Shown here piece by piece: positions 5,668-26,508 of a stretch of DNA of 64,000 bases. The notes under the pieces are model-generated. The model did not search any database. It was not told the DNA's origin and was given only the letters and a program-made list of their open reading frames with translations. Every line of letters starts with the position of its first letter. Position 1 is the stretch's first letter. Origin of the DNA: an uncultured Roseicyclus sp. (lineage in GTDB: Bacteria > Pseudomonadota > Alphaproteobacteria > Rhodobacterales > Rhodobacteraceae); assembly GCA_947494975.1 (NCBI GenBank), contig CANLXA010000001.1:310001-374000 (forward strand), written 5' to 3'. The translations under genes were made by a program, and so were the position numbers.

Positions 5668-6911
5668 AATACTCCGCCGTCACTCTCGCGCGCGAGGCGG
5701 TGCGCGGACAACGCGGCTGGCGGCCCGCATGGGTGAAGGCAAAGCCGAAAGACGCCTATGATGCCATCATCGTGGGCGGTGGTGGCCACGGGTTGGCCAC
5801 CGCCTATTGCCTCGCCAAAACCCACGGCCTCACCCGCGTGGCGGTGCTGGAAAAGGGCTGGATCGGCGGCGGCAATACCGGGCGCAACACAACCGTGATC
5901 CGGTCGAACTATTTCTATCCCGAAAGTGTAGCCCTCTATGATCTGGCCCTGCGCCTCTACGAGGGCCTGTCGAAAGAGCTGAACTACAACATCATGTTGA
6001 GCCAGCGTGGTATGTTGATCGCCGCGCATACGCCCGCACAGATGGAGATCTGCAACCGGATCGCCAACGCGATGCAACTCAACGGCGTCGATGGCCGGCT
6101 GATGGAGGCCGAGGAAGCCGCGGCCAAGGTGCCGCTGGCCAATCAAGGCGCACAGGCGCGCTACAAGCTGATGGGCGGTATCTGGCAGGGCCGCGCGGGC
6201 GTCGCGCGCCATGATGCGGTGGCCTGGGGCTATGCCCGCGCCGCCTCCGCTCTTGGCGTCGACATCATCGAAGGCTGCGAGGTGTCGGATATCCGCGTTG
6301 AAGCGGGCCGTGTCACCGGTGTCGAAACCGATCTCGGCCCGATCCGCACAAATCGTCTCGGCCTCGCCGCCGCGGGTGCCACGCCGGGCCTCGCGGCCAA
6401 GGTCGGCGTCCGCCTCCCGATCCACACCTACGCGCTTCAGGCCTTTGTCTCCGAACCGATCAAACCGATCCTCAATACGGTCCTGCTCTACCTCGGCACG
6501 GGCACCTATCTCAGCCAATCCGACAAGGGGGAGCTGGTGATCGGGGGTGGCCTCGACCGCGTGCCGACCCATGGTCAGAAGGGGAACCTGCCCGCGCAGG
6601 AAGAGGTTCTCTCCGGGCTCTTGGAGATGTTCCCGAGCTTCGGCCAGTTGAAACTGCTGCGTCAGTGGGGCGGCGTGGTCGATGTGGTGCCCGACAGCTC
6701 CCCGATCCTCGGCCCGGCGGGCCCTGACGGGCTTTACCTCAATTGCGGCTGGGGCACCGGCGGCTTCAAGGCGATCCCGGCCGGCGGTACGCTTCTCGCC
6801 CATATGTTGGCGACGGGCGCCCACCACCCGATTTCCAAACCCTTTGACCTCGACCGGTTTCGCACCGGCCGCCTCATCGATGAGGCGGCAGGCTCCGGCA
6901 TCGCGCATTAG
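5664..6911 (+). CDS. soxB: Sarcosine oxidase-type beta subunit
   Basis: The 415-residue FAD protein matches the beta subunit of heterotetrameric sarcosine oxidase, the subunit that carries the oxidation site for N-methyl amines. The N-terminus (MKYSAVTLAREAVRGQRGW) and the Rossmann motif GGGGHG at residues 38-43 are family-typical, and the ARHDAVAWG segment contains the histidine that binds FMN covalently in characterised enzymes. GTG at 5664 is the start, overlapping the TetR stop (GTGA); the longer open frame from 5373 runs through the regulator gene. Order B-D-A-G downstream is the standard operon. Substrate could be sarcosine or another N-methyl amino acid. The name here is the sarcosine gene, not the thiosulfate-oxidation soxB. 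Confidence 0.9.
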   Translation: MKYSAVTLAREAVRGQRGWRPAWVKAKPKDAYDAIIVGGGGHGLATAYCLAKTHGLTRVAVLEKGWIGGGNTGRNTTVIRSNYFYPESVALYDLALRLYEGLSKELNYNIMLSQRGMLIAAHTPAQMEICNRIANAMQLNGVDGRLMEAEEAAAKVPLANQGAQARYKLMGGIWQGRAGVARHDAVAWGYARAASALGVDIIEGCEVSDIRVEAGRVTGVETDLGPIRTNRLGLAAAGATPGLAAKVGVRLPIHTYALQAFVSEPIKPILNTVLLYLGTGTYLSQSDKGELVIGGGLDRVPTHGQKGNLPAQEEVLSGLLEMFPSFGQLKLLRQWGGVVDVVPDSSPILGPAGPDGLYLNCGWGTGGFKAIPAGGTLLAHMLATGAHHPISKPFDLDRFRTGRLIDEAAGSGIAH

Positions 6912-6922
6912 GGGGACCCGCC

Positions 6923-7171
6923 ATGCAAACCTTCCCCTGCCCCTTCTGCGGCCCGCGTGATGAGACGGAATTCCACTTCGCCGTCGAAGCCGACCACCCC
7001 AGGCCGGAAAATACGCCATCCGACGTCGAATGGGCCGCCTATCTCTACACCGTCGACGCGCCGCAGGGCCCGGCGCGGGAAATCTGGCTGCATATCCCCT
7101 GCGGCGAATACTTCGTGATGTCCCGCAATACGCGAACCCGCGACGTGACGGGGTCGGAAGCGCTTCGATGA
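6923..7171 (+). CDS. soxD: Sarcosine oxidase-type delta subunit
   Basis: An 82-residue protein with the CPFCG motif (C6, C9) and a later H57-x2-C60 (HIPC), the zinc-binding residues of the SoxD family. The small subunit is structural and caps the alpha subunit of the heterotetramer. It lies 11 bp after soxB and its stop overlaps the soxA start (ATGA), so it is translationally coupled. Family members usually read CGRWF after the last cysteine; here it reads CGEYF, a mild deviation. Confidence 0.9.
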   Translation: MQTFPCPFCGPRDETEFHFAVEADHPRPENTPSDVEWAAYLYTVDAPQGPAREIWLHIPCGEYFVMSRNTRTRDVTGSEALR

Positions 7172-14761: not shown

Positions 14762-15696
14762 GCCCGCACCCCCCTGTAGGTGACGATGGCCCCGAGCATC
14801 ACAACGGCCACCATGATCACCCCCTCCACGATGGTGGTGACGTTCGGGTCCACCGCAGCCAGCGTCAGGATCGTGCGGATGATGCGCAGGATGAAGACGG
14901 CGATGATCGGCCCCAGAAGCCCGCCACGCCCGCCCCCAAGGACCACACCGCCCAAGACCACCGCCGCGACGGAGGCAAGCAGATACGGGCCGGGCACTGG
15001 TTCCCCAATTCCCGTCAGCATGATGAGACTCATGCCCCCCATCGCCGCCAGCAAGCCGCAAAGCGCATAGGCCACCACTTTGGTCCAACCGACACTAACG
15101 CCCGAGCGGAACGCCGCCAGTTCGTCCGACCCCACCGCATAGATCGACAACCCGATCTTGGAGCGGCGCACGGGCATCCAGACCAACGCAATCGCCACCG
15201 CCATCACCACCAAAGCCATCGGCAAGCCGGGCAGTATCGAGCCCGCGATGATCCCCTGCATCGCATCTGTTACATTGCCGCCGGGTGTCGACAGGATCAG
15301 CAGCGCCACACCCTCCCACACGAACAGCATGGCCAGCGTCACCACGATATCCGGAACCTTGGTCACCACGATCAACGCGCCGTTGATCGCTCCCATCGCC
15401 GTGCCGACGCCGAGCGTGATTATGATCGCGGGCACGGCCCCCATGCTTTGCATCAGGACCGCCGCCGTCACGCCACAGACAGCCATCATCGACGCAATCG
15501 ATAGATCGATGCCACCCACAATCACGACAATCGCCATGGCCGCCGTGGCGAAGGCAAAGGGCAAGGCCGCGCGGGCGAGGCTTTCAAGGCCGGTGGCCCC
15601 GAAGCTCGGCTGGATCAGCTTGGTGATGCCCAACAGGACCATCAGCAGCACCAGCAGGCCAAGGACCCAAGCATGTTTCTGCACCAGCCGTGTCAT
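14758..15696 (-). CDS. CUT2-type ABC sugar transporter permease (first)
   Basis: 312-residue RbsC-family inner-membrane permease with multiple hydrophobic helices and the IVGGIDLSIASM motif that contacts the ATPase in this family. ATG at 15696 overlaps the ATPase stop by 4 bp, and its own stop overlaps the second permease. Two different permeases in one CUT2 operon is a common arrangement for sugar and cyclitol importers. Confidence 0.9.
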   Translation of the reverse strand: MTRLVQKHAWVLGLLVLLMVLLGITKLIQPSFGATGLESLARAALPFAFATAAMAIVVIVGGIDLSIASMMAVCGVTAAVLMQSMGAVPAIIITLGVGTAMGAINGALIVVTKVPDIVVTLAMLFVWEGVALLILSTPGGNVTDAMQGIIAGSILPGLPMALVVMAVAIALVWMPVRRSKIGLSIYAVGSDELAAFRSGVSVGWTKVVAYALCGLLAAMGGMSLIMLTGIGEPVPGPYLLASVAAVVLGGVVLGGGRGGLLGPIIAVFILRIIRTILTLAAVDPNVTTIVEGVIMVAVVMLGAIVTYRGVRA

Positions 15697-17183
15697 GACG
15701 CCGCCTTGTCTTCAGTCAGGCCGTAGGCGGCGCGCATCAGGGTTTCCTCATCGGCCTCGGCGGCGTCGATCACGTCGACCACACGCCCGTTGAAGATCAC
15801 CACCGCGCGGTCGCAGGCCAGCGGCACTTCCTCCAGTTCCGACGTGTAGAAGAGCACCGCCGCACCTTGATCCGCCAATTCGCGGACCAGCGGATAGATC
15901 TGGCGTTTCGTGCGCACATCGATGCCGCGCGTGGGATCGAACAGGAGCAGTGTTTCCACCCCATGGGCCAACCAGCGCCCAATGGTCACCTTCTGCTGAT
16001 TGCCGCCGGACAGGCGCTGCACCTCACCCTTGGCACGGGTGTCGATCTGCAGCTTGTCGATGGCATGGCCCACCCGCTCGCGCTCGTGGCGAGCCTTCAA
16101 TGGCCCCCAAGATCCGACGCGCGCGGAGAACGGCAACGCGATGTTTTCGTGGACCGAGCGTTCGCGTAGCAATGCCTCGGCCCGGTCGCCGGGGACAAAG
16201 GTCAGACCTGCTGAAATAGCGTCGGCAGGGTGGCCAAAGCTGACGGGTGAACCATCTACTTCGAACGTGCCGCTTGTGGGTCGGCGGAACCCTGCAAGGA
16301 CATCGAATACCTCATCCTGCCCCTGCCCCTCCAACGCGACCACGCCCAGAACCTCGCCGGGATAAAGATCTAACGATACATCCGTAACCTTCGGGGCCAC
16401 GGCCAGGCCGCGCGCCCGGATCCGCGGTGTACCTTCCTTCGCGCGGGCGCCGCCGGTCTCCCTTGCGCCAAGGTCGATCTTTGCCCCCAGCATCATCTCG
16501 ACCACACGGCCCTCAACGCCTGGCTCGATCTTCAGATCACCGACGCTGCGGCCATCGCGCAGAACGGTCGCACTGTCACACAGCTCGGAGATTTCCGTGA
16601 ACCGATGCGAGATATAGATCACGCCGCGTCCCTCATCAGCCTGCGCGCGCACGACCCGCAGGACATTTTCCACCAGGTCCGTGGGCAACGCCGCGGTCAT
16701 TTCATCAAGGAGCAACACGTCCGGTTCAGCCGCCAATGCGCGGGCGAGATCAAGGATACGAAGCGTTGCCAACGGCAGATCGGCAATCATGTGGTCGAGG
16801 CGTAAGCCGCCGACTCCCAATTCGTTAACCCAGTTAAGGAATGGCTCAACCGGCGTATCGCCAAGGCGCAGATTGTCGGCCACGTCGAGATCGGGGATCA
16901 GCGACGGCTCCTGATAGACCGGCACAAGGCCGGATCGGCGCGCCTGTGCGGGAGAGCCGACACGCGCTTCCTCGCCCCGGATCAGAACCTTGCCACTGTC
17001 GGGGCGCAGCGCCCCGGTAATTATCTTCACGAAGGTCGATTTGCCCGCACCATTGGCGCCCATCAGCGCCACAACCTGGCCCCGCGCCACGTGGAGGCTC
17101 GCATCGCTCAAGGCCCTGACGGCACCAAAACTCTTGGCGATCCCGCTTGCATCGAGCAAGCTATCGCGCTGCACCTCGTCCAT
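15693..17183 (-). CDS. CUT2-type ABC sugar transporter ATPase, two nucleotide-binding domains
   Basis: The 496-residue RbsA/MglA-type protein has two fused ATPase domains. The first has a good Walker A (GANGAGKST, about residue 40) and Walker B (VLLLDEMTAAL) but a degenerate ABC signature; the second has a degenerate Walker A (LEGQGQDEVF) and a good signature (LSGGNQQKV), so one composite active site is intact, as usual in this family. ATG at 17183 gives MDEVQRDSLLDA; the open frame upstream to 17357 overlaps the binding-protein gene. A hairpin (17216-17242) separates it from that gene. Confidence 0.9.
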   Translation of the reverse strand: MDEVQRDSLLDASGIAKSFGAVRALSDASLHVARGQVVALMGANGAGKSTFVKIITGALRPDSGKVLIRGEEARVGSPAQARRSGLVPVYQEPSLIPDLDVADNLRLGDTPVEPFLNWVNELGVGGLRLDHMIADLPLATLRILDLARALAAEPDVLLLDEMTAALPTDLVENVLRVVRAQADEGRGVIYISHRFTEISELCDSATVLRDGRSVGDLKIEPGVEGRVVEMMLGAKIDLGARETGGARAKEGTPRIRARGLAVAPKVTDVSLDLYPGEVLGVVALEGQGQDEVFDVLAGFRRPTSGTFEVDGSPVSFGHPADAISAGLTFVPGDRAEALLRERSVHENIALPFSARVGSWGPLKARHERERVGHAIDKLQIDTRAKGEVQRLSGGNQQKVTIGRWLAHGVETLLLFDPTRGIDVRTKRQIYPLVRELADQGAAVLFYTSELEEVPLACDRAVVIFNGRVVDVIDAAEADEETLMRAAYGLTEDKAAS

Positions 17184-17215
17184 GACGCCCCTGATTTTCT
17201 GGGATGTTTCGGGAT

Positions 17216-17242
17216 CTGCCCCCCGCATCGGGCGGAGGGCAG
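17216..17242 (-). terminator. Intercistronic hairpin after the ABC binding-protein gene
   Basis: On the minus strand CTGCCCTCCGC pairs with GCGGGGGGCAG across a 5-nt loop (11 pairs, one G-U). No T-run follows, so it is more likely an mRNA stability or partial-termination element that lets the binding protein be made in excess over the membrane components, a common arrangement in ABC operons. Confidence 0.55.
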
Positions 17243-17256
17243 TGTGGCTCAGATCA

Positions 17257-18273
17257 TCAGCCTTCGCAGGCGATGATGTCTTCCATGGAATAGTCCGTCC
17301 AACCCGGCACGGTGACCGATACCGGCCATTCGGGATCAAGGTTGGGATTCTGGGCATTGGCGATCACTTCGCGGCCCTCTTCGGTCGTGTTTTCCCACAA
17401 GACCGGATCCACCAGCACGGTCGTATCCTCAGGCGCTTCACCGTTCAGGATGTCGACCGCCAGCGCGATACCCGCGCCTCCGACAGAGCCGGGATTGGTC
17501 ACCGCCGCACCGGACAGGCCCTCGACTGTTGAGAGATATTCGACAAATCCGGCATTATCGGCGCCCACGATCGGCACAAGCGGCGCGCCGGATTCGGTGA
17601 ATGCATCCACGATCACGTTGTCGATCCCGCTGGTCCAGACGCCATCAAACGGGATGCCCGTGGCCAGGAAATCAAACATCTGCTGCTTCCCCTGGTCCTG
17701 TTGCCAGCCGGTGAAGACTTCGTGAATGACGTTGATGTTCGGGTATTCCGCCAGTGCCCGCTGAAAGCCGTTGTCACGGTCGGTATCGGCCGACACGCCC
17801 GCAATGCCGCGCATGTAGACCACGTCCCCTTCGCCACCCAATTGCTCGAACAGCCAACGCGCGCCGAGATAGGCGTATTCCTCCTGGTTGTTTGACAGGA
17901 TATAGGCTCCCTCTGCCGTCACACCCGCATCCACGGCGACCACGACGATGCCCGCTGCAATCGCGGCATCGAGTGCCGAGTTCAGGGCGTCGGGGTTGGC
18001 AGGGTTCAGCACAATCGCATCCACCCCGGCCTCGATCAGGTTGTTGAGGTCCTCAAGCTGGCCGGCCGCGTCGGTGTTGCGGTGCGCCACGATCAGGCTG
18101 TCGACGTCGCCTTCAGCCGCCGCCTGGGCCCGCATCGCGCAGATCATCTGTTCACGCCAGCCATTGCCCTGCACCGTATTCGACACGCCGATCACATAGG
18201 CGTTGTGCCCGTCCGCATATGCCGCGGGCGCCAGCATCGCGAGCGCCGCAGCTGTGGTTAGAAGCTTCTTCAT
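17257..18273 (-). CDS. CUT2-type ABC transporter periplasmic sugar-binding protein
   Basis: 338 residues, starting with a cleavable signal peptide (MKKLLTTAAALAMLAPAAYA, likely cut before DGH). The mature part is a type I periplasmic-binding fold like RbsB/IbpA, with the LNPANPDAL and VAVDAGV segments characteristic of ribose/inositol binders. AGGGAGG precedes the ATG at good spacing. It is the fourth gene of the operon and supplies substrate to the ATPase and two permeases that follow. The ligand is probably a monosaccharide or cyclitol; exact identity unknown. It is the counterpart of MocB in rhizopine loci. Confidence 0.9.
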   Translation of the reverse strand: MKKLLTTAAALAMLAPAAYADGHNAYVIGVSNTVQGNGWREQMICAMRAQAAAEGDVDSLIVAHRNTDAAGQLEDLNNLIEAGVDAIVLNPANPDALNSALDAAIAAGIVVVAVDAGVTAEGAYILSNNQEEYAYLGARWLFEQLGGEGDVVYMRGIAGVSADTDRDNGFQRALAEYPNINVIHEVFTGWQQDQGKQQMFDFLATGIPFDGVWTSGIDNVIVDAFTESGAPLVPIVGADNAGFVEYLSTVEGLSGAAVTNPGSVGGAGIALAVDILNGEAPEDTTVLVDPVLWENTTEEGREVIANAQNPNLDPEWPVSVTVPGWTDYSMEDIIACEG

Positions 18274-18327: not shown

Positions 18328-19242
18328 TTACTTGATGTATGGTTGCAACACGTCCCTGGCGAGGCAGAAGCCCCGCTTCACCTTCTCGTCCGTGCCCTCA
18401 AAATCCCGATCCTCATGTTCGATAATCACCGGGCCATCATATCCAGCGCGATAAAGGCCGCCGAAGAAGTCGCCCCAATCCACATCGCCAAGGCCGCAAA
18501 GCCGGGGGATCTGCCAGCCCATCCCGGTCGACATCGTCCCGTTCTCGTAAAGGCCGTCCCGGTCGATCATGACGTCCTTGGCGTGGACATGGGCCATCTG
18601 GCCGCCGAATTCCTTGATGAACCGGGTTTGATCGATGAACTGCCAGATCAGGTGCGACGGGTCGAAATTCATGCCGACCGCGTCACCCCACTGCTCGAAG
18701 ATCCGCCGCCAAACCTTTGGCGAATAGGCGATATTGTGGCCGCCCGGCCATTCATCGTAGCTGAAGATCATGGGGCAGTTTTCAAAACACAGCCGCACGC
18801 CGGAGGCCTGGGCATGGGCCACGATGGGGTTGAAGATTTCAATCGCCCTGCCCCAGTTTTCATCGACAGTCAGGCGGCGATCTCCGCCGACAAAGGTGTT
18901 AACGACGCTGACTCCCATGACCCCCGCCGCCGTGATCACCTTCATCAAATGGCCGATCACGTCATCCCGATGCTCGGCATCGGCATGCAGGGGATTGGGA
19001 TAGTAGCCAAGGCCCGAAATACGGATACCGCGCTCGGCCAATCCGCCGACAATGTCCGCGCCTTCTGTCGCCGTCAGACCATCCACGTCGATGTGGGACG
19101 TGCCGGCATAGCGCCGTGCCTCACCGCCGGATGCCGGCCAACATGCTACTTCCATTGCCGAAAACCCGTTGGCACCGGCCCAATCCGCGACCTCCATCAG
19201 GCCGGTGTCCTCGAACGGTGCGGTCAATATCCCAAGCTGCAT
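18328..19242 (-). CDS. Sugar phosphate isomerase/epimerase-family TIM barrel protein
   Basis: 304 residues, xylose-isomerase-like TIM barrel (AP endonuclease family 2). Metal-ligand positions are visible: E in CFENCP, D and H in FDPSHL, H in HVHAKD and E in IEHED. Relatives include IolE/IolI, 3-keto-sugar beta-eliminases and tagatose/psicose epimerases. ATG at 19242 has GGGGGA upstream and lies one base after the previous stop; a TTG at 19254 is an inferior alternative. Sitting after a Gfo/Idh/MocA dehydrogenase, it may isomerise or eliminate from the keto-sugar formed. It parallels MocC of rhizopine clusters. Confidence 0.85.
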   Translation of the reverse strand: MQLGILTAPFEDTGLMEVADWAGANGFSAMEVACWPASGGEARRYAGTSHIDVDGLTATEGADIVGGLAERGIRISGLGYYPNPLHADAEHRDDVIGHLMKVITAAGVMGVSVVNTFVGGDRRLTVDENWGRAIEIFNPIVAHAQASGVRLCFENCPMIFSYDEWPGGHNIAYSPKVWRRIFEQWGDAVGMNFDPSHLIWQFIDQTRFIKEFGGQMAHVHAKDVMIDRDGLYENGTMSTGMGWQIPRLCGLGDVDWGDFFGGLYRAGYDGPVIIEHEDRDFEGTDEKVKRGFCLARDVLQPYIK

Positions 19243-19243
19243 C

Positions 19244-20404
19244 CTATCCCCCAACTTCGTCCAATCTGATCCAGCGCTCTTCCCGCGCCGACATCACCAC
19301 CGCATCGCAGAACCGCATCTCGTAATGACCGTCCTCAAACGTCGCCCAAGTGCTTTCCGGTTGGCGCGTGCCGGCTTCAACATCAGCGTATACCGCTCTG
19401 AAAAAGTTGAAGAAACTGTCCGCGAAACCTTCGACATGCCCGGGCGGCAGTGTCGCGGCAGCCGTGCCGCTGCCGTTCATCAAGGTGAAGTCGCGCATCA
19501 GCGTCTCGTTCGCCTTGTCGCGGTGGCCAACAAACAGATGATCCGGCGTTTCACTGTCCCAGGCCGCGCTGGCCCTGGACCCCGCCACATCCCATTGCAG
19601 GGCGTTCTTGCGGCCCATATTGATCTGGCTGGTGCTCATCACGCCCCGCGCGCCGCCCGGATATCGGATGACGATCATGGCGGCGTCATCGGTATCAATC
19701 TCGACGCGTTCAGTCGCGCCGGCGGCGCTTGAAAATGTCTCAACCGGTCCCACGGGCTTTTCGCGTTCCGGAACAAAGGTCGCCAGCTCGGCCATCACGG
19801 CCTCGGCCTTAAGCCCAGTCACAAAGCTGGTCAGGTCGACCCAATGGGTGCCGATATCGCCAACCGAACGCAGCGCGCCGCCAATCTCGGATTGCAAACG
19901 CCAGTTCCAATCGGTGGGCTTGGCCAACCAATCCTGATGGTAGTGACCTGTAACGAAATGGATATCCCCCAGTTCTCCGGCTTTCACCATGCCGTGGGCC
20001 TGCTGGTTCAGGGGGTAAAACCGGATGTTGTAGCAGACGGCGGCGACCTTACCCGATACATGGGCGATCTCCACCATTTCCGCGCTTTCCGCGCTGGTCA
20101 TCGCCAGCGGTTTTTCGCAGATCACGTGTTTGCCTGCCTGCAGGATTGCCTTCACTTGCCCGTAATGTGCGTGGTTGGGTGAGGTGACGTGGACGACGTC
20201 GACGCTGTCGTCAGACAGAAGATCATCCAGATCGGCATAGGCCTTGACCACACCCATCTCCGCCGCACGGGCGGCGCCACGTCCGGCAGACGAGCCCAAT
20301 ACGCCCCGCACCTGAACGCCCAACCGGCGGAGCGCCTGGGTGTGGACCGTTCCGATGAAGCCAGTGCCGATGACGGCGGCGCCGATGCGAGCAAAATCCG
20401 TCAT
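19244..20404 (-). CDS. Gfo/Idh/MocA-family oxidoreductase (operon member 2)
   Basis: 386 residues with an intact NAD(P)-binding motif (VIGTGFIG near residue 11), EKP motif (CEKPLAMTS) and a family-typical C-terminal domain containing GTHWVDL. This is the most canonical of the four paralogues in the operon and the likeliest first dehydrogenase acting on the imported sugar. The ATG lies 12 bp after the SDR stop. The isomerase follows one base later. Confidence 0.88.
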   Translation of the reverse strand: MTDFARIGAAVIGTGFIGTVHTQALRRLGVQVRGVLGSSAGRGAARAAEMGVVKAYADLDDLLSDDSVDVVHVTSPNHAHYGQVKAILQAGKHVICEKPLAMTSAESAEMVEIAHVSGKVAAVCYNIRFYPLNQQAHGMVKAGELGDIHFVTGHYHQDWLAKPTDWNWRLQSEIGGALRSVGDIGTHWVDLTSFVTGLKAEAVMAELATFVPEREKPVGPVETFSSAAGATERVEIDTDDAAMIVIRYPGGARGVMSTSQINMGRKNALQWDVAGSRASAAWDSETPDHLFVGHRDKANETLMRDFTLMNGSGTAAATLPPGHVEGFADSFFNFFRAVYADVEAGTRQPESTWATFEDGHYEMRFCDAVVMSAREERWIRLDEVGG

Positions 20405-20416
20405 GGGCCAATTCCT

Positions 20417-21139
20417 TCAAACAACGGAATATCCCCCATCAACCGGAATGGTAACGCCGGTCACGAAGCCTGCTGAATCGCTGGCCAAAAACATTGCCGT
20501 CCCCACGATATCCACAGGTTGTCCCCAACGCCGCATTGGTGTTCGCGCCTCGACACCTTTCACGAAATCCGGATCTTGGCGGGCGCGGGCGGATTGATCC
20601 GTCACAATGAACCCGGGCGCGATGGCATTGACGCGAATTCCATCACCCGCCCAGGCGATGGCAAGGGATTTGGTCATCTGCTCCACTCCCGCCTTGCTAG
20701 CCCCATAAGCCGGATTTCGGGGGCTCCCAAACCGCGCATACATGGACGCAACATTGATCACTGCGCCGTTCCGAAGTGCGCCGTGAAACGCCTCGGCACA
20801 GCGCAGGGAACCCACGAGGTTCACGTTCAACACGTGGGAGAAGAACTCAGGATCCATTTCCTCGCCGCGTCGGGTGATTGCAGCGCAATTCACAAGAACA
20901 TCAAGGCGTTGTGTCCCCTTGGCAAAGGCACGAACGGCTTCGGTGTCGGTCACATCAAGCTGCGCATAATCGAACCGCGTTACATCTTCGGCGGCAGGCT
21001 CGGCCTCGATTCCCGTGATCCGAACATGGGCGCCGGCATCCTGAAACGACCGCGCAATCGCCGCACCGATCCCGCCACGGCTGGCACCGACAACCAGAAC
21101 CTCCGCGCCGGTAAAGTCGTGATGCGTGGTCGCAATCAT
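20417..21139 (-). CDS. SDR-family oxidoreductase, first gene of the sugar operon
   Basis: 240-residue short-chain dehydrogenase/reductase with GASRGGIG cofactor motif (near residue 18), NVASMYA serine and YGASK catalytic tetrad, and the IPVDGGY ending typical of 3-ketoacyl reductase-like and polyol dehydrogenase members. ATG at 21139 is chosen because the fold begins with FTGAEVLVVGA; an in-frame ATG at 21199 would add 20 residues but sits inside the operator region. A strong Shine-Dalgarno lies not directly before it but before an 11-codon leader frame whose stop overlaps this start (21136-21171). The gene is divergent from its LacI regulator. Confidence 0.85.
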   Translation of the reverse strand: MIATTHHDFTGAEVLVVGASRGGIGAAIARSFQDAGAHVRITGIEAEPAAEDVTRFDYAQLDVTDTEAVRAFAKGTQRLDVLVNCAAITRRGEEMDPEFFSHVLNVNLVGSLRCAEAFHGALRNGAVINVASMYARFGSPRNPAYGASKAGVEQMTKSLAIAWAGDGIRVNAIAPGFIVTDQSARARQDPDFVKGVEARTPMRRWGQPVDIVGTAMFLASDSAGFVTGVTIPVDGGYSVV

Positions 21140-21171
21140 CCCACCGACACCTGAGTTTTGCGATGGCGCAT
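21136..21171 (-). CDS. Possible 11-residue leader peptide (MRHRKTQVSVG)
   Basis: A frame of 11 codons begins at ATG 21171, preceded at 8 bases by AGGAGG, the strongest ribosome-binding site in this intergenic region, and ends in TGA overlapping the SDR ATG (GGATGATT). It would give translational coupling into the operon. No similarity is claimed; the frame is so short that chance is possible, but the strong Shine-Dalgarno is hard to explain otherwise. Confidence 0.35.
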   Translation of the reverse strand: MRHRKTQVSVG

Positions 21172-21184
21172 TCCCGCCCCCTCC

Positions 21185-21198
21185 TGTAATCGATTTCA
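21185..21198. promoter_or_regulatory. LacI-type operator O1
   Basis: TGTAATCGATTTCA, a 14-bp near-palindrome centred on CG, as in LacI/PurR/CcpA-type operators. It is the exact reverse complement of O2 at 21228-21241 and lies in the divergent promoter region between the LacI gene and the ten-gene operon. Centre-to-centre distance to O2 is 43 bp, about four helical turns, which suits binding on the same DNA face. Confidence 0.75.
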
Positions 21199-21227
21199 TA
21201 CTTCGGCAAATTGTTATTTGCGCATTC

Positions 21228-21241
21228 TGAAATCGATTACA
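21228..21241. promoter_or_regulatory. LacI-type operator O2
   Basis: TGAAATCGATTACA, exact inverted copy of O1. It lies about 60 bp before the regulator start and so may mediate autoregulation as well as repression of the divergent operon. Confidence 0.75.
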
Positions 21242-21301
21242 TACTCCAACCATGAAGAGATTCGAGTCAACCCGCGATTTGACGAAACAGTCAGAGGTTC
21301 C

Positions 21302-22333
21302 GTGACCCCGAAAGCAGCAACCATCCAGGACGTGGCCCAAGCCGCGAAGGTATCGACCGCGACGGTCAGTCGGGCGTTGTCGAACCCCGATCTGTTGTCC
21401 GAGCGGACCCGTGCGCAGGTGATGGAGGCGATCAGGACCACAGGATACCGGGTTAACCTGGCGGCGCGAAATCTGCGCATGCAGCGCGCGGGTGCGGTTC
21501 TGGTATTGGTTCCGAACCTTGGCAAACCGTTCTATTCCACGATCCTGAGGGGTATTTCGGACGGGTTCGCGCGCACCGACTACGCCGTTCTGATCTCGGA
21601 CACGGAAAACCGTCCGCTCGCCGATGGCGAGTTGGTGGGCAACTTTCTGGATGGGCGCATCGACGGCATCGTCTCGCTTGACGGCGGGATCAGCCCTGCT
21701 GCCCTGGACCAATGCCGGGATCACAACGTCGATGGCCGCATCGTGTTTGCCTGCGAATGGGTGGATGGTTACGCGTTCCCTTCGATCCAGTCCGACAATG
21801 CCGAAGGCGCGCGGCTGGCGATCCGGCACCTCTACGATCTGGGCCATCGCAAGATTGCCCATGTCACGGGGCCCCGCGGCAATGTGCTGACTGCAATCCG
21901 CCGCCGCGGCATGTTGGAGGAGCGGAGCCGTCTTCACCTGCCTGCCCGGGAGGATTGGATCATTCGCGGCGACTTCTCGTTGAAATCCGGGCATGACGCC
22001 GCCGTTTCGATCCTGGCGATGGATCCGGACGATCGTCCGACAGCCGTATTCTGCGCCGCCGACATGGTCGCGTTTGGCCTGATCGCGGGGCTGAATGCCG
22101 GCGGCCTTGAGGTGCCTGGCGATATCTCCGTCGTCGGATTTGACGATATCGACATGGCCGAAAGCTATGTGCCCGCGCTGACGACAATTCGCCAGGATCG
22201 AATGCGGCTGGGGCAGACCGCGGCCGCACGCCTTCTGGAGCGTCTCGGCTCCGGCCCTGTGCCCGACCCACAGGAGGAACTGTTGCCGGTGGAACTTATC
22301 GTTCGGGACAGCACGGCGCGGATCGCCAGCTGA
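21302..22333 (+). CDS. LacI-family transcriptional regulator of the ten-gene sugar operon
   Basis: 343 residues. The N-terminal helix-turn-helix (TIQDVAQAAKVSTATVSRAL) and hinge helix region (NLAARNLRMQRAG) are clear, followed by a type I periplasmic-binding-like effector domain ending with the usual RDST segment. GTG at 21302 is chosen: AGAGG lies 4 bases upstream and the length fits the family; no other ATG/GTG start is available closer in frame. A 17-codon frame from ATG 21252 ends in TGA overlapping this GTG, so coupling is conceivable. It likely binds O1/O2 and responds to the imported sugar or an intermediate. Confidence 0.88.
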   Translation: MTPKAATIQDVAQAAKVSTATVSRALSNPDLLSERTRAQVMEAIRTTGYRVNLAARNLRMQRAGAVLVLVPNLGKPFYSTILRGISDGFARTDYAVLISDTENRPLADGELVGNFLDGRIDGIVSLDGGISPAALDQCRDHNVDGRIVFACEWVDGYAFPSIQSDNAEGARLAIRHLYDLGHRKIAHVTGPRGNVLTAIRRRGMLEERSRLHLPAREDWIIRGDFSLKSGHDAAVSILAMDPDDRPTAVFCAADMVAFGLIAGLNAGGLEVPGDISVVGFDDIDMAESYVPALTTIRQDRMRLGQTAAARLLERLGSGPVPDPQEELLPVELIVRDSTARIAS

Positions 22334-22338
22334 CCTGG

Positions 22339-23064
22339 TCATGGTGCCGCTCCTGCGATCCACTGTTCCAGATCAAGCGCCGCACCGGTGAGCGGGGCGG
22401 AGGCATCGGAGAGCATCCACGTAACCTGCGCCGCACAATCCCCGGCGGTGATGAATTGCCCCAGGGGCTGCGCCGCCGCCCGCGCATCCATCCAACCGGC
22501 TCCATGGGTCGCGTCTTGCATGGCGCGCTCGGTCTCCGTCGCCACCCAGCCAAGGTTAATGCCGTTAACCCTTATCCGATCCGCCATATGGGCCTGTGCC
22601 GCGTTTTTCGTCAGCGTCTGGAGCCCGCCCTTGGTGGCGGCATAAATCGCAAGCTCGGGAACACCACAATGGGCGTTCATCGACTGGATGTTGACGATGG
22701 ACCCGGACGCCCCACGCCCCCTCAGGTGCCGGATGACCTCTGACATCAGAAAGAACGGCGCGCGCAGGTTCACCGCGATCAGGTGGTCGAACCGCTCGAC
22801 ATCCGCATCGGTGAAAGAGGCGCGGGTGGTGATCCCGGCCGCATTGACCAACCCATCGACCCGGCCCGCCCGCTCAAGGACCTGCGCCATGATTGCGGCC
22901 GGTGCCTCGGGCGCAGCAAGATCCGCCTGAATGCCATTGGCCATCACGTCACGATCGACACCCAATACCTCGGCCCCGGCTTTCGTACAGGCGGCGGCAA
23001 TCGCGGCCCCGATGCCCCTTGCGGCACCGGTGACCAGCAGCACCTTGCCCGTCAGGTCGCTCAT
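22339..23064 (-). CDS. SDR-family oxidoreductase of the demethylase-like module
   Basis: 241-residue short-chain dehydrogenase with TGAARGIG motif near residue 13, NAAG-type motif, NIQSMNA serine and YAATK. The ending lacks the usual DGG but reads ALDLEQWIAG. It is the last gene of a four-gene minus-strand operon, overlapping the PanB-like gene by 4 bp, and is convergent with LacI (5 bp between stops). It could oxidise the product of the oxygenase step or reduce a keto intermediate. Confidence 0.85.
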   Translation of the reverse strand: MSDLTGKVLLVTGAARGIGAAIAAACTKAGAEVLGVDRDVMANGIQADLAAPEAPAAIMAQVLERAGRVDGLVNAAGITTRASFTDADVERFDHLIAVNLRAPFFLMSEVIRHLRGRGASGSIVNIQSMNAHCGVPELAIYAATKGGLQTLTKNAAQAHMADRIRVNGINLGWVATETERAMQDATHGAGWMDARAAAQPLGQFITAGDCAAQVTWMLSDASAPLTGAALDLEQWIAGAAP

Positions 23065-23852
23065 CCGCCGATCCCGTCCAGAAACGCGTCGAAGGCTCCG
23101 TCATGCATGGCGACCACATGGCCCTTTGCCGGAAACGCCCCGCTTTGAACATCGGCGGCAAACTCGCGGAAGGCCGCCACACGCTCGTCCTGCAACCGGG
23201 CATATTCAGACGCGAAGTCGCGATAGGCCTTGGCGTGCCGCGGCGCGCGGGTTTTGCCTTCGCCCAGGATATCCTCGGCGAACACGTATTGCGCGTCGCA
23301 TCCCGCACCGGATCCCATCGACCACAGCAAGATGTCCAGCCGCGCGGAAATGGCGGCGGCGACTTCTGCGGGCACGACTTCGATCTCGACGGCAATCGCC
23401 CCCGCCTCCTGATAGCGGCGACAGGCTTCGAAAATCTCAATCGCACCGGCGGCATCGCGGCCCTGCGCGCGGTAGCCCATCCACCTGTCCCGCGCGGGAA
23501 TGATACCCACATGGCCCACAATCGGGATATGCTCGGGCGCAAGGTATTCGACCGTCTGAAACGAGCCCGAGCAGTAGAACGCGTCTGCCCCGGCCTCGGC
23601 CATCGGGCCGCACCAGCGCAGATAATCCTCGGCGGTGCCTGCGCTCAGATGCGTCTGGCCCGTCATCGAAAACACGCCCGGCGCCACATCGCGATAACGC
23701 GGATCGGCCACCAGGTCCGGCGGAACCGACGCGATATCGATGCCGGCGGTCTCCGCAGCCGCCGCCTCATCCATGGTGAAATACCGCAGCATCGTCATCT
23801 GGCGCTGCCCCTTGGCCGCGCGCAGATCGGCGATGGTGGGCCTTTGCCTCAC
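23061..23852 (-). CDS. Divergent ketopantoate hydroxymethyltransferase (PanB)-like protein
   Basis: 263 residues, the usual PanB length, with PanB-type opening (RPTIADLRAAKGQRQ) and the conserved GHVGIIP loop at about 113-119 (GHLGLTP in E. coli PanB) and VEIEVVP, matching the catalytic glutamate segment. But the metal-binding aspartate motif VGDSLG of PanB reads SVPPDL here, the lysine segment VKIEGG reads FYCSGS, and IGIGAG reads WSMGSGAGC. True pantothenate synthesis is therefore unlikely. GTG at 23852 overlaps the Rieske gene stop (GTGA). PanB moves a hydroxymethyl group from methylenetetrahydrofolate to a 2-oxo acid; a role in handling the one-carbon unit released by the neighbouring oxygenase, or a retro-aldol step, is a hypothesis only. 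Confidence 0.7.
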   Translation of the reverse strand: MRQRPTIADLRAAKGQRQMTMLRYFTMDEAAAAETAGIDIASVPPDLVADPRYRDVAPGVFSMTGQTHLSAGTAEDYLRWCGPMAEAGADAFYCSGSFQTVEYLAPEHIPIVGHVGIIPARDRWMGYRAQGRDAAGAIEIFEACRRYQEAGAIAVEIEVVPAEVAAAISARLDILLWSMGSGAGCDAQYVFAEDILGEGKTRAPRHAKAYRDFASEYARLQDERVAAFREFAADVQSGAFPAKGHVVAMHDGAFDAFLDGIGG

Positions 23853-24160
23853 ACCTGCACCTGGATGCGGCCCTCGGCGATCCGGGCCGGATAGGTCGTC
23901 AGCGCCACGCAGGCGGGCGTCCGCAGGGCCGCCCCGGTCTTGTAATTGAACCGGCCGTTGTGTTTCGGGCATTCGATTTCGTCGTCAAGCACCAGGCCAT
24001 CGGCCAGATGCACCTGTTCGTGCGTACACAAACCGTCGGTGCAAAACGGGGTGCCATCCTCGTCGCGATAGACGGCAAAGGTGCGGCCGACATGATCGAA
24101 ACGGATCACGTCTTCCTCCTCGATCTCCCCTATGGCGCAAACATCGACCCACTCGCTCAT
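23849..24160 (-). CDS. Rieske [2Fe-2S] ferredoxin, MocE-like
   Basis: 103-residue soluble Rieske-type ferredoxin with C45-x-H47 and C64-x2-H67 as cluster ligands. It is of the type that feeds electrons to membrane desaturase-like oxygenases; in rhizopine catabolism MocE works with MocD. The gene begins at ATG 24160, one base after the desaturase stop, so the two are surely co-translated. No ferredoxin reductase (MocF counterpart) is encoded within the window, so it must borrow one. Confidence 0.85.
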   Translation of the reverse strand: MSEWVDVCAIGEIEEEDVIRFDHVGRTFAVYRDEDGTPFCTDGLCTHEQVHLADGLVLDDEIECPKHNGRFNYKTGAALRTPACVALTTYPARIAEGRIQVQV

Positions 24161-24161
24161 G

Positions 24162-25244
24162 TCAACTCGCCTCCGGCAATGAGGTTTCGGTGTGGAAAGC
24201 CTCCACATAGGGTTTGGCGCCGGGCGGAAGGGCGCGGCGCGCAAAGTATCCGGGCTCCGTCCGCTGGCGCAGCACCGCTGCGATCATCTCGGCATAGGCA
24301 TGCGGGATCGACGGGTTCGCAGGCGGCAGGTCGTCCTTGATCAACTCATGCAGCGCAGGCAACGCGTGGTACGGCACCATCGGAAACATATGGTGTTCGA
24401 CGTGGTAGTTCATGTTCCAGTAGAGCCAGCGGCTGACCGGGTTCATGTAGACGGTCCGGCTGTTGAGCCGATGATCGAGCACGTCTTCGGCCAGCCCGCC
24501 ATGCTGCAAAAGCCCCACCAGAACCATGTGCCATGTGCCATAGATCCGTGGCCCGCCGATCAGCATCAGCGGCAGGATAGACCATGTCAGCAGCGCCAGA
24601 AGCAGGGCCACAAGGTGCAACCCAACGAAAAGCCGTGCCCAGAACATCACCTTGGGCACCTCGCTTTCCGGGATGTAGTCGGCCTCCTCCGCGTTCGGGC
24701 CGCTGATGGCCTGCCGCACCAACACGCCGAAATGCACGAAGGCATCCGGTATCCCGACAAAGGCCAGCGCTTTGCGAGCAATGTCGGGGGGCCGCATGAC
24801 GGTGATCTCGGGATCTCGTCCGACGATGATTGTATCGGTGTGGTGGCGGGCATGGCTCCAGCGCCAGGCAACCGGATTGCGCAGCACCATGAAGCTGGCA
24901 AGGGCATAGACCCAATCGTTTTTCGACTGTGTCTTGAAGGCCGTTCCGTGCCCGCATTCGTGCCACCGGCTGTCACAGGCCGAGCCGTAGAGCACGCCGT
25001 AGACCAGAAAAAACGGCACCGCCCACCATGTGCCCCAGGTGGCAATCCCGCCAATGCCTGTCAGCAGCAACAGGCCCAACCACAGGATCGTGTCACGGGT
25101 TGCCGGCCCGTCATTGCGGCGCATCAGGCCCTTCATGACCTTGCGCGGGACATCCGTGTGATACCATTCGGCAGAGGCCAGCCCGATGGCAATCGCGCGG
25201 TCCCGCTCCGGGCCGATCAGGGAATAATCCCGTGCTGGTGTCAT
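24162..25244 (-). CDS. Membrane fatty-acid desaturase-like di-iron oxygenase, MocD-like
   Basis: 360-residue integral membrane protein with the three histidine boxes of the desaturase/hydroxylase superfamily: HECGH at 95-99, HARHH at 131-135 and HVEHH at 281-285. Hydrophobic stretches around 52-90 and 205-230 provide membrane helices. The pairing with a Rieske ferredoxin, rather than acyl-lipid genes, matches MocD, an oxygenase needed for O-demethylation of the rhizopine 3-O-methyl-scyllo-inosamine. It is the first gene of the operon and divergent from the LacI gene at 25489. A plain lipid or carotenoid desaturase is the main alternative. Confidence 0.8.
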   Translation of the reverse strand: MTPARDYSLIGPERDRAIAIGLASAEWYHTDVPRKVMKGLMRRNDGPATRDTILWLGLLLLTGIGGIATWGTWWAVPFFLVYGVLYGSACDSRWHECGHGTAFKTQSKNDWVYALASFMVLRNPVAWRWSHARHHTDTIIVGRDPEITVMRPPDIARKALAFVGIPDAFVHFGVLVRQAISGPNAEEADYIPESEVPKVMFWARLFVGLHLVALLLALLTWSILPLMLIGGPRIYGTWHMVLVGLLQHGGLAEDVLDHRLNSRTVYMNPVSRWLYWNMNYHVEHHMFPMVPYHALPALHELIKDDLPPANPSIPHAYAEMIAAVLRQRTEPGYFARRALPPGAKPYVEAFHTETSLPEAS

Positions 25245-25488: not shown

Positions 25489-26508
25489 ATGCGCCCCACC
25501 CTGAACGATCTTGCCGAGGCCGCTGGCGTCTCCACCGCGACGGTGGACCGGGTGCTGAACAACCGCCCGAACGTCTCTGCACGGACGCGCGAGATCGTGG
25601 AGGTCGCGGCCCGTCGCATCGGCTATCTTGCCGACGAGGACAGCGCCGGGCGCCCGGTTCATCTGGTGGCGCTCCTGCCCGCTGGAACCAACCAGTTCAT
25701 CCGGGACCTGCGCGCGCATCTCGCTGCGCAGGCCGCCGCCGTGGCCGGCGTGACCCTCGACATTCGTGAAACCAACAGCCTCACGCCAGCCGATCAGGCC
25801 CGGGCGCTTGGCCGTGTGGGCCCCGCGGACGGTGTGATCGTTGTGGCGTTGAACCACCCCTTCGTGCGGGATGCCATCCTTTCCCTCTCCGCGCGCGGCA
25901 CGCCGGTGGTGACACTGGCCTCCGACCTCGCGGGGTCGGACCGGTTGGCATATGTGGGGGTCGACAACGCCCAGGCCGGGCGCCTGGCCGGGCAGGTCAT
26001 CGGGCGGTTTCTGGGGCGGCAGACCGAAGGAAAAGTTGCCTTCTTCGCAGGAACACTGGCCTATCGCGGGCATCAGGAGCGCGAGATGGGCCTGCGCCAG
26101 ATCCTGGCCGAGGATCACCCCGGCCTCACCCTTCTTGACCTGCGTGAAAGCCGCGAAGACCGCGATCGTGCCCGGGATCAGACACGCGCGTTGCTGGCCG
26201 AACACCCGGACCTTCTGGCCATTTACAATGCCGGGGGCGGCACGGCCGGCATCGCCACGGCGCTGGAAGAGGCCGGGTGCGCCGACAAGATCGTCTTCAC
26301 CGCCCACGAAGCCACCGCGCGCAACAAGGCATTGCTGCAAAGCGGTACGCTGGATGCCGTGATCGATCAGAATGCGCGCGCCGAGGCACGCGAAGCCCTG
26401 GCCATACTCGTAGCCCATACCCGCAACCTGCCCCACAGCCCGGTTCCACCCCGCCTGCAACTGATCCTGCGTGAGAACATCCCGCACGACCCCGCGCTGC
26501 CAGTTTGA
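25489..26508 (+). CDS. LacI-family transcriptional regulator (second)
   Basis: 339 residues with an N-terminal LacI helix-turn-helix (TLNDLAEAAGVSTATVDRVL) followed by a ribose-binding-protein-like sensor domain that resembles CUT2 binding proteins more closely than classical LacI (DGVIVVALNHP, VYVGVDN-type segments). It is divergent from the four-gene MocD/MocE/PanB-like operon and is the obvious candidate regulator. The ribosome-binding site is weak. Effector is presumably a sugar or cyclitol. Confidence 0.85.
   Translation: MRPTLNDLAEAAGVSTATVDRVLNNRPNVSARTREIVEVAARRIGYLADEDSAGRPVHLVALLPAGTNQFIRDLRAHLAAQAAAVAGVTLDIRETNSLTPADQARALGRVGPADGVIVVALNHPFVRDAILSLSARGTPVVTLASDLAGSDRLAYVGVDNAQAGRLAGQVIGRFLGRQTEGKVAFFAGTLAYRGHQEREMGLRQILAEDHPGLTLLDLRESREDRDRARDQTRALLAEHPDLLAIYNAGGGTAGIATALEEAGCADKIVFTAHEATARNKALLQSGTLDAVIDQNARAEAREALAILVAHTRNLPHSPVPPRLQLILRENIPHDPALPV

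Follow-up and report, generated by a model that had tools for sequence, protein, structure and literature searches.

Ketopantoate hydroxymethyltransferase (PanB, EC 2.1.2.11, PF02548) draws its carbon from 5,10-methylene-tetrahydrofolate, with a metal helping to form the enol, as outlined in PMC7770189. Other systems deal with a carbon that is released by demethylation. In nicotine catabolism the purU-mabO-folD operon is described as handling the methyl carbon via tetrahydrofolate (THF) (PMC3891541), in methylguanidine demethylation the lyase MgdL is described as acting after hydroxylation of the methyl group by MgdH (PMC12508155), and the rhizopine genes have the published order mocCABRDEF (PMC6668481, PMC5789663). 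Here, a PanB-like gene is analysed that shares an operon with a membrane di-iron oxygenase and a Rieske-type ferredoxin in a 64,000-nucleotide stretch from an uncultured Roseicyclus sp. (GCA_947494975.1, contig CANLXA010000001.1, positions 310,001 to 374,000), hereafter the window. The branch of proteins to which it belongs is real and conserved, its panB label is probably wrong, and it most likely serves one-carbon release in oxidative demethylation. That the PanB-like protein is itself the one-carbon off-loading step, delivering the carbon to THF, is favoured here at slightly better than even confidence.

The operon lies on the minus strand and comprises a MocD-like membrane di-iron oxygenase of the FA_desaturase family (24162..25244, 360 amino acids, PF00487 at 132.5 bits), a MocE-family Rieske-type [2Fe-2S] ferredoxin (23849..24160, TIGR02377 at 159.6 bits with a cut-off of 136.15), the PanB-like protein (23061..23852, 263 amino acids, GTG start, PF02548), which is the predicted one-carbon off-loading enzyme, and a short-chain dehydrogenase/reductase (SDR; 22339..23064, PF13561/PF00106, NF004847 at 283.6 bits with a cut-off of 240). 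The initial annotation, made from the letters alone, had described these four genes as coupled by 4-bp overlaps or one-base gaps, and their coordinates and domains were confirmed together with the spacing at all three junctions: a gap of 1 base between oxygenase and ferredoxin, and overlaps of 4 bp each between ferredoxin and PanB-like gene and between PanB-like gene and SDR. The three predicted histidine boxes of the oxygenase were located as HECGH at 95, HARHH at 131 and HVEHH at 281, and the ferredoxin carries the Rieske motif CTH...CPKH (Pfam Rieske, 73.8 bits). The proposed match to MocD/MocE also held, the ferredoxin lying above the MocE-family cut-off and the oxygenase being 63% identical to that of a moc-type locus of Phyllobacterium. 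No member of the MocF-type ferredoxin reductase cluster was found at 10-38 kb of the window or in the near relative L036, and a search for in-frame fusions of PanB-like proteins with their neighbours returned none. Among the best 80 of 518 relatives, the nearest named one is again from an uncultured Roseicyclus, with 97% identity in the PanB-like protein. In a comparison with L036, the closest relative, dN/dS (the ratio of nonsynonymous to synonymous substitution) amounts to 0.08 in the oxygenase gene and 0.07 in the PanB-like gene, which indicates purifying selection on the latter.

The resemblance of the PanB-like protein to PanB is partial. Pfam Pantoate_transf gives 123.7 bits and covers only positions 103-258 of a profile of 259, and the curated panB models score 93.8 and 111 bits, below their cut-offs of 207.55 and 272. 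With the AlphaFold model (pLDDT 85.3, residues 118-127 and 199-204 poorly predicted), the best Foldseek matches in the PDB are PanBs, at template-modelling (TM) scores of 0.72-0.74 and a root-mean-square deviation of about 7 A for this predicted structure, and the next are 2-methylisocitrate-lyase relatives at a TM score of about 0.5. Mapping of the E. coli PanB residues onto the window protein replaces D84 by G65, K112 by Y93 and E114 by S95, and retains H136 as H114 and E181 as E158. The loop around D45 is about 14-20 residues shorter and reads PPD, so that D45 is not aligned with certainty, and the VGDSLG motif is absent.

When the window protein and 176 from other loci (177 PanB-like proteins after deduplication) were aligned with seven canonical PanBs, this pattern extended to nearly the whole branch. 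The D84 column holds Asp in only 2/177 PanB-like proteins, as opposed to 7/7 canonical ones; at K112, Lys occurs in 5/177 and Tyr in 151/177; and at E114, Ser (81/177) and Ala (43/177) prevail, with Glu, which is outside the six commonest letters, in at most 9/177. The equivalents of H136 and E181 are each invariant (177/177), and so is a Glu in the V179 column (177/177). Asp stands in the D45 column in 29/177 proteins, in a part where the alignment is weak, and the nearby D46 is Asp in 42/177 relatives and thus not conserved; to judge from these columns, the D45 metal ligand was likely lost in the branch. The initial annotation was therefore correct on the kept length, GH(V/L)G loop and glutamate, to which H136 can be added. 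Of the motifs that it described as lost, VGDSLG and the lysine motif (K112, E114) are absent, with the D45 column left uncertain, and D84 is lost as well; an intact PanB active site was not seen. Beside these positions, residues ~121-133 read WMGYRAQGRD in the window and L036 and TWTGGF(R/K)AVGKT in most relatives, so that this near-invariant loop is one residue shorter and carries K132R in the two.

An ordinary panB for pantothenate synthesis, diverged only in sequence, would be the simplest alternative, as the gene is the single PF02548 match in the window genome (nine contigs, 100% complete by the completeness tool) and its relatives are labelled 3-methyl-2-oxobutanoate hydroxymethyltransferase in the database. 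The same genome, however, has no match to PanC (PF02569), which is matched in 9/14 control genomes, and with neither another PanB-family gene nor PanC a pantothenate role becomes very unlikely. The absence of D84, K112 and E114 and the scores below the panB cut-offs likewise speak against it, and four genomes (G038, G073, G099 and G178) hold a panB with all six residues alongside PanB-like genes, reducing this alternative to a nearly negligible chance.

The genomic surroundings of the relatives were surveyed in the best 80 of 518 relatives, many of which come from Mesorhizobium, so that the loci are not independent. Three plasmid loci brought these to 83, and five further plasmid loci and 120 loci from other genomes to 208. 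A homologue of the window oxygenase is present in 74/83 loci, within 3 kb in 73, and a ferredoxin lies within 3 kb in 66; the nine loci without the oxygenase homologue are six from actinobacterial metagenome-assembled genomes (MAGs), the short contigs L059 and L105, and L042. When the window oxygenase and two FA_hydroxylase-family proteins were used as queries, a desaturase- or sterol-desaturase-type oxygenase was found within 5 kb in 160/208 loci (132 and 33, some with both), and three of those of the sterol-desaturase type were verified as members of Pfam FA_hydroxylase. In the deduplicated set, a membrane di-iron oxygenase gene of either Pfam family lies within 6.5 kb of 135/177 members and of none of the other 42, and a 118-leaf FastTree clade containing the window (support 1.0) has 99 members with and 19 without one at this distance. 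The controls consisted of 20 panB loci (14 canonical and six of an intermediate type) and of 20 windows placed at fixed, chosen coordinates; none contained a di-iron oxygenase, PurU or FolD, and the only matches, both weak, were to the ferredoxin in L281 and to FrmA in L306. Chance linkage was ruled out on this basis, with 0/14 canonical panB loci and 0/20 control windows positive. The linkage proposed from the single locus is thus conserved and widespread, but not specific to the desaturase/Rieske pair, since 30/177 members have a sterol-desaturase-type oxygenase in place of the desaturase type.

Distances between PanB-like proteins and between oxygenases correlate (r 0.83 over 81 loci), as would be expected if the PanB-like protein were an accessory of the oxygenase, concerned with assembly, scaffolding or channelling and devoid of chemistry of its own, although co-inheritance alone could give the same correlation. 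Invariance of the H136 and E181 equivalents suggests catalysis instead, many related oxygenases lack a PanB-like partner and unrelated oxygenase families have one, leaving the accessory-protein explanation a slim prospect. In three loci (L202, L229 and L259), one PanB-like gene is accompanied by two or three co-directional di-iron oxygenases, suggesting that these share a one-carbon product. In L259, from the small genome G817 (1.6 Mb), the oxygenases flanking the PanB-like gene, all encoded on its strand, comprise two of the desaturase type and one of the sterol-desaturase type; the genome holds four PanB-like copies.

Genes of one-carbon metabolism adjoin part of the relatives. Nine of the 208 loci encode PurU (formyl-THF deformylase) no further than 2.2 kb from the PanB-like gene: five of Mesorhizobium type (48-60 bp downstream), the Phyllobacterium locus L147, L181 (where it lies on the opposite strand), L204 and L256. 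Two of them, L147 and L204, also encode FolD, and in these two loci, the ones scanned, both FolD and PurU exceed the NCBIfam cut-offs. Five of the eight genomes with a linked PurU have no other copy above cut-off and three have one more, and among nine other genomes searched only G582 has a copy, an unlinked one, the remaining eight being without PurU above cut-off. The FolD gene of L147 (14504-15526) is missing from the gene table of its plasmid. In the window genome, FolD is encoded about 0.5 kb from formate-THF ligase.

Four moc-type (rhizopine) loci, picked for their likeness to L147 and hence not a sample, have the PanB-like gene directly after mocDEF, the genes on which a 1998 study by Bahar reportedly centred. 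The order mocD-E-F-PanB-like-purU recurs in three species. Sinorhizobium meliloti RCAM1115 and Rhizobium leguminosarum A1 show the order regulator-oxygenase-ferredoxin-reductase-PanB-like-purU, the RCAM1115 oxygenase being found by tblastn; tblastn gave the same moc-type order for BL225C, and FolD is matched in part at the A1 locus. In S. meliloti 1021, a PanB-like gene occupies NC_003078.1 610001-610789, downstream of an FAD-reductase gene (SM_b20820) that has been published as mocF. The name moc is given to the loci of these strains on the strength of the published gene order, from which we infer the correspondence.

Taken together, the loss of the metal-side residues, the retention of H136 and E181 and the neighbouring PurU and FolD suit a transfer of an oxidised methyl carbon to THF. 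In the proposed sequence, oxygenase and ferredoxin would hydroxylate a methylated cyclitol or sugar at its O-methyl group, and the PanB-like protein would take the resulting hydroxymethyl hemiacetal, or formaldehyde freed from it, and pass the carbon to THF to give 5,10-methylene-THF, from which FolD followed by PurU or formate-THF ligase would yield formate. The enzyme would have kept H136 and E181, which may face the one-carbon unit, and dropped the residues on the Mg2+ and 2-oxo-acid side that PanB uses for the enol. The genes, their conservation and linkage, the lost residues and the PurU and FolD neighbours are observed; the substrate, the hemiacetal, THF as acceptor and the order of the steps are predicted.

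The main alternative is a dedicated hemiacetal lyase that only splits the hydroxymethyl ether into an alcohol and free formaldehyde, as MgdL does after MgdH, with the formaldehyde then meeting THF or glutathione unaided. The MgdH/MgdL pair is an earlier example of a lyase that follows the hydroxylation of a methyl group (PMC12508155), several copies at separate places of one genome (G200, G082) are what a substrate-linked lyase might need, and FrmA, the glutathione formaldehyde dehydrogenase, is widespread. Such a lyase does not by itself explain adjoining PurU and FolD, however, and the presence of one PanB-like gene with several oxygenases speaks against it. Moreover, O-hemiacetals are expected to decay fast unaided, and the lyase is considered rather unlikely, if less so than the other alternatives. 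Replacement of a missing glutathione formaldehyde route by the PanB-like protein was not seen, FrmA being found in all 12 genomes with a PanB-like gene. A zinc alcohol dehydrogenase gene (5895-6986, 39% identical to E. coli FrmA by tblastn) lies 72 bp from the PanB-like gene in L218, and this PanB-like gene itself follows a sterol-desaturase-type oxygenase gene.

Further oxygenase families came from the loci without a di-iron oxygenase, examined by a motif scan and then by Pfam and tblastn. An intermediate PanB type, represented by L272 and the control loci L281-L286, keeps D45 and K112 and has Ser, Ala or Cys at D84 and Gln at E114. A gene of the VanA type (vanillate O-demethylase family) stands 54-90 bp from this panB on the same strand in L272, L281, L282 and L284; that of L272 matches VanA_C of Pfam with 139 bits, those of the other three are 62-77% identical to it, and three of the six intermediate-type control loci thus adjoin a VanA-type Rieske oxygenase. 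Intermediate PanB and VanA-type oxygenase possibly form a third kind of demethylation module. L233, L234 and L241, in addition to a sterol-desaturase-type gene, have a co-directional ring-hydroxylating-type homologue no more than about 100 bp from the PanB-family gene, and PhyH-type genes occur 21 bp away in L268 and 364 bp away in L265. These counts are leads rather than rates because the numbers are small and the queries were picked from such loci, and they do not separate transfer to THF from the lyase, which they fit alike. The broader proposal, that once an O-methyl ether has been oxidised the PanB-fold enzyme moves its hydroxymethyl group straight to THF, that it serves several unrelated families of demethylating oxygenase and that it supplies the step missing from the catabolism of rhizopines and methyl-inositols, is put forward tentatively, with somewhat less than even confidence.

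Several observations weigh against transfer to THF. No full-length PurU was found in the examined stretch of 199/208 loci; the window cluster has neither PurU nor FolD, and the window genome has no PurU above cut-off. FrmA is above cut-off in 22/24 genomes (12/12 with and 10/12 without a PanB-like gene), so that detoxification does not require the THF route and free formaldehyde could be cleared otherwise. Within 5 kb, 48/208 loci have no di-iron oxygenase, some being cut by contig or region ends, and in five of these an oxygenase of a different type lies at that distance; a ring-hydroxylating homologue also turned up in one control window (L314). The six PanB-like loci of actinobacterial MAGs, four of them on short or cut contigs, contain no oxygenase that could be found, and in L100, L103 and L104 the PanB-like gene overlaps a gene of the AMP-binding (acyl-CoA-synthetase) type by 4 bp. 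From the opposite side, a PanB-like gene lies within 10 kb of 50/98 oxygenase relatives listed for 295 family genomes, and 20 of the 48 unlinked places were examined. Among these 20, two closely similar islands, L322 and L323, contain the oxygenase and ferredoxin and no PanB-like gene, weakening the case for its essentiality, and nothing corresponding to the SDR at 22339-23064 is present in them either. A strict dependence of the PanB-like gene on an oxygenase was not supported. In another locus, L326, a PanB with VGDSLG and VKLEGG (997-1812) and an oxygenase/ferredoxin pair unaccompanied by a PanB-like gene occur together within 14.5 kb.

The shared absence in L322 and L323 also bears on a further alternative, in which the PanB-like protein works, as a lyase, isomerase or aldolase, on the backbone of the demethylated sugar or cyclitol and has nothing to do with the methyl carbon; the PanB-like protein and the SDR could act together on such a backbone. 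The C-C lyases among the fold relatives (2-methylisocitrate lyase), the actinobacterial copies without oxygenase and L227, which has a sugar-type transporter and no oxygenase found in the stretch examined, are compatible with it. L322 and L323 nevertheless still encode the second SDR, the Gfo/Idh dehydrogenase, the TIM-barrel protein and the binding protein of the island (65-80% identity to the reference sequences), which argues against a core backbone step, though less firmly because the SDR counterpart is missing too. With one PanB-like gene beside several oxygenases, several oxygenase families and the PurU and FolD neighbours also pointing elsewhere, a backbone enzyme is held to be improbable. 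Since related islands exist without it, the PanB-like step is probably accessory to the pathway. The one-carbon role suggested by the initial annotation accordingly remains partly supported: PurU, FolD and extra oxygenase families beside relatives speak for it, and the 50/98 linkage, the two islands free of PanB-like genes, the lack of PurU and FolD in the window and a reaction that is itself deduced hold it at that level.

The operon belongs to a wider catabolic island. A LacI-family regulator (25489..26508, plus strand, PF00356), whose cluster occurs in 21/84 loci compared, is divergent from the operon, and a second one (21158..22333, plus strand, PF00356/PF13377) is convergent with it. On the minus strand follow the second SDR of the island, as the C-terminal part of a longer open reading frame (20417..21208, PF13561 at 190.8 bits); a Gfo/Idh/MocA dehydrogenase (19244..20404), whose nearest named model, levoglucosan dehydrogenase, is matched with 178 of 650 bits, far below cut-off; a xylose-isomerase-like TIM-barrel protein (18328..19254, PF01261); a sugar-binding-type ABC transporter substrate-binding protein (17257..18273, PF13407); and, in the same conserved island, an ABC transporter ATPase with two PF00005 domains and an uncertain start (15693..17357). 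The gene order around the ATPase is common to the window, L036, L039, L043, L054 and L115.

As judged from gene content, the LacI regulators, sugar-type transporters, Gfo/Idh and TIM-barrel proteins, DUF4432 (40/83 loci) and iol genes (L150, L202 and L256) point to sugars or cyclitols as substrates. In Mimosa exudate, mocDEF homologues of Rhizobium mesoamericanum were reported to be upregulated 1.53-2.11-fold; the same account gives pinitol as the most concentrated component of the exudate, and its authors suggested rhizopine (PMC5789663). A literature search by title and abstract opening returned nothing on a PanB-like gene of demethylation loci, and the main texts of PMC3538637 and PMC11387232 do not contain "panB", nor does that of PMC5789663 contain "hydroxymethyltransferase". 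Many panB-labelled genes in rhizobia and Rhodobacteraceae are probably unrelated to vitamin B5. PanB-like genes may mark demethylation clusters and may explain the fate of the methyl carbon from rhizopines and from methylated inositols such as pinitol; if this is true, a large protein family would be re-annotated and a THF-dependent enzyme added to oxidative O-demethylation.

Compared with PanB, the window protein shares the fold, the length, the GH(V/L)G loop and the H136 and E181 equivalents, whereas it lacks D84, K112 and E114, has a shortened D45 loop and a Glu at V179, and is encoded in a genome without panC. Its oxygenase and ferredoxin partners resemble those of the MocDEF rhizopine complex, with 63% and 66% identity, respectively, to their counterparts in the Phyllobacterium moc-type locus, but no ferredoxin reductase was found in the window stretch compared, and the transporter, SDR and regulators differ. 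With MgdH/MgdL, the window system has in common an oxygenase followed by a dedicated protein for a hydroxymethyl intermediate; there, a 2-oxoglutarate dioxygenase and a hemiaminal are involved instead of a di-iron enzyme and an ether, and the likeness drawn to MgdL concerns its role. The purU-mabO-folD operon of pAO1 likewise sends a demethylation carbon to THF and then to FolD and PurU, in which the transfer is carried out by the amine oxidase MABO, in place of which a PanB-fold protein is proposed here.

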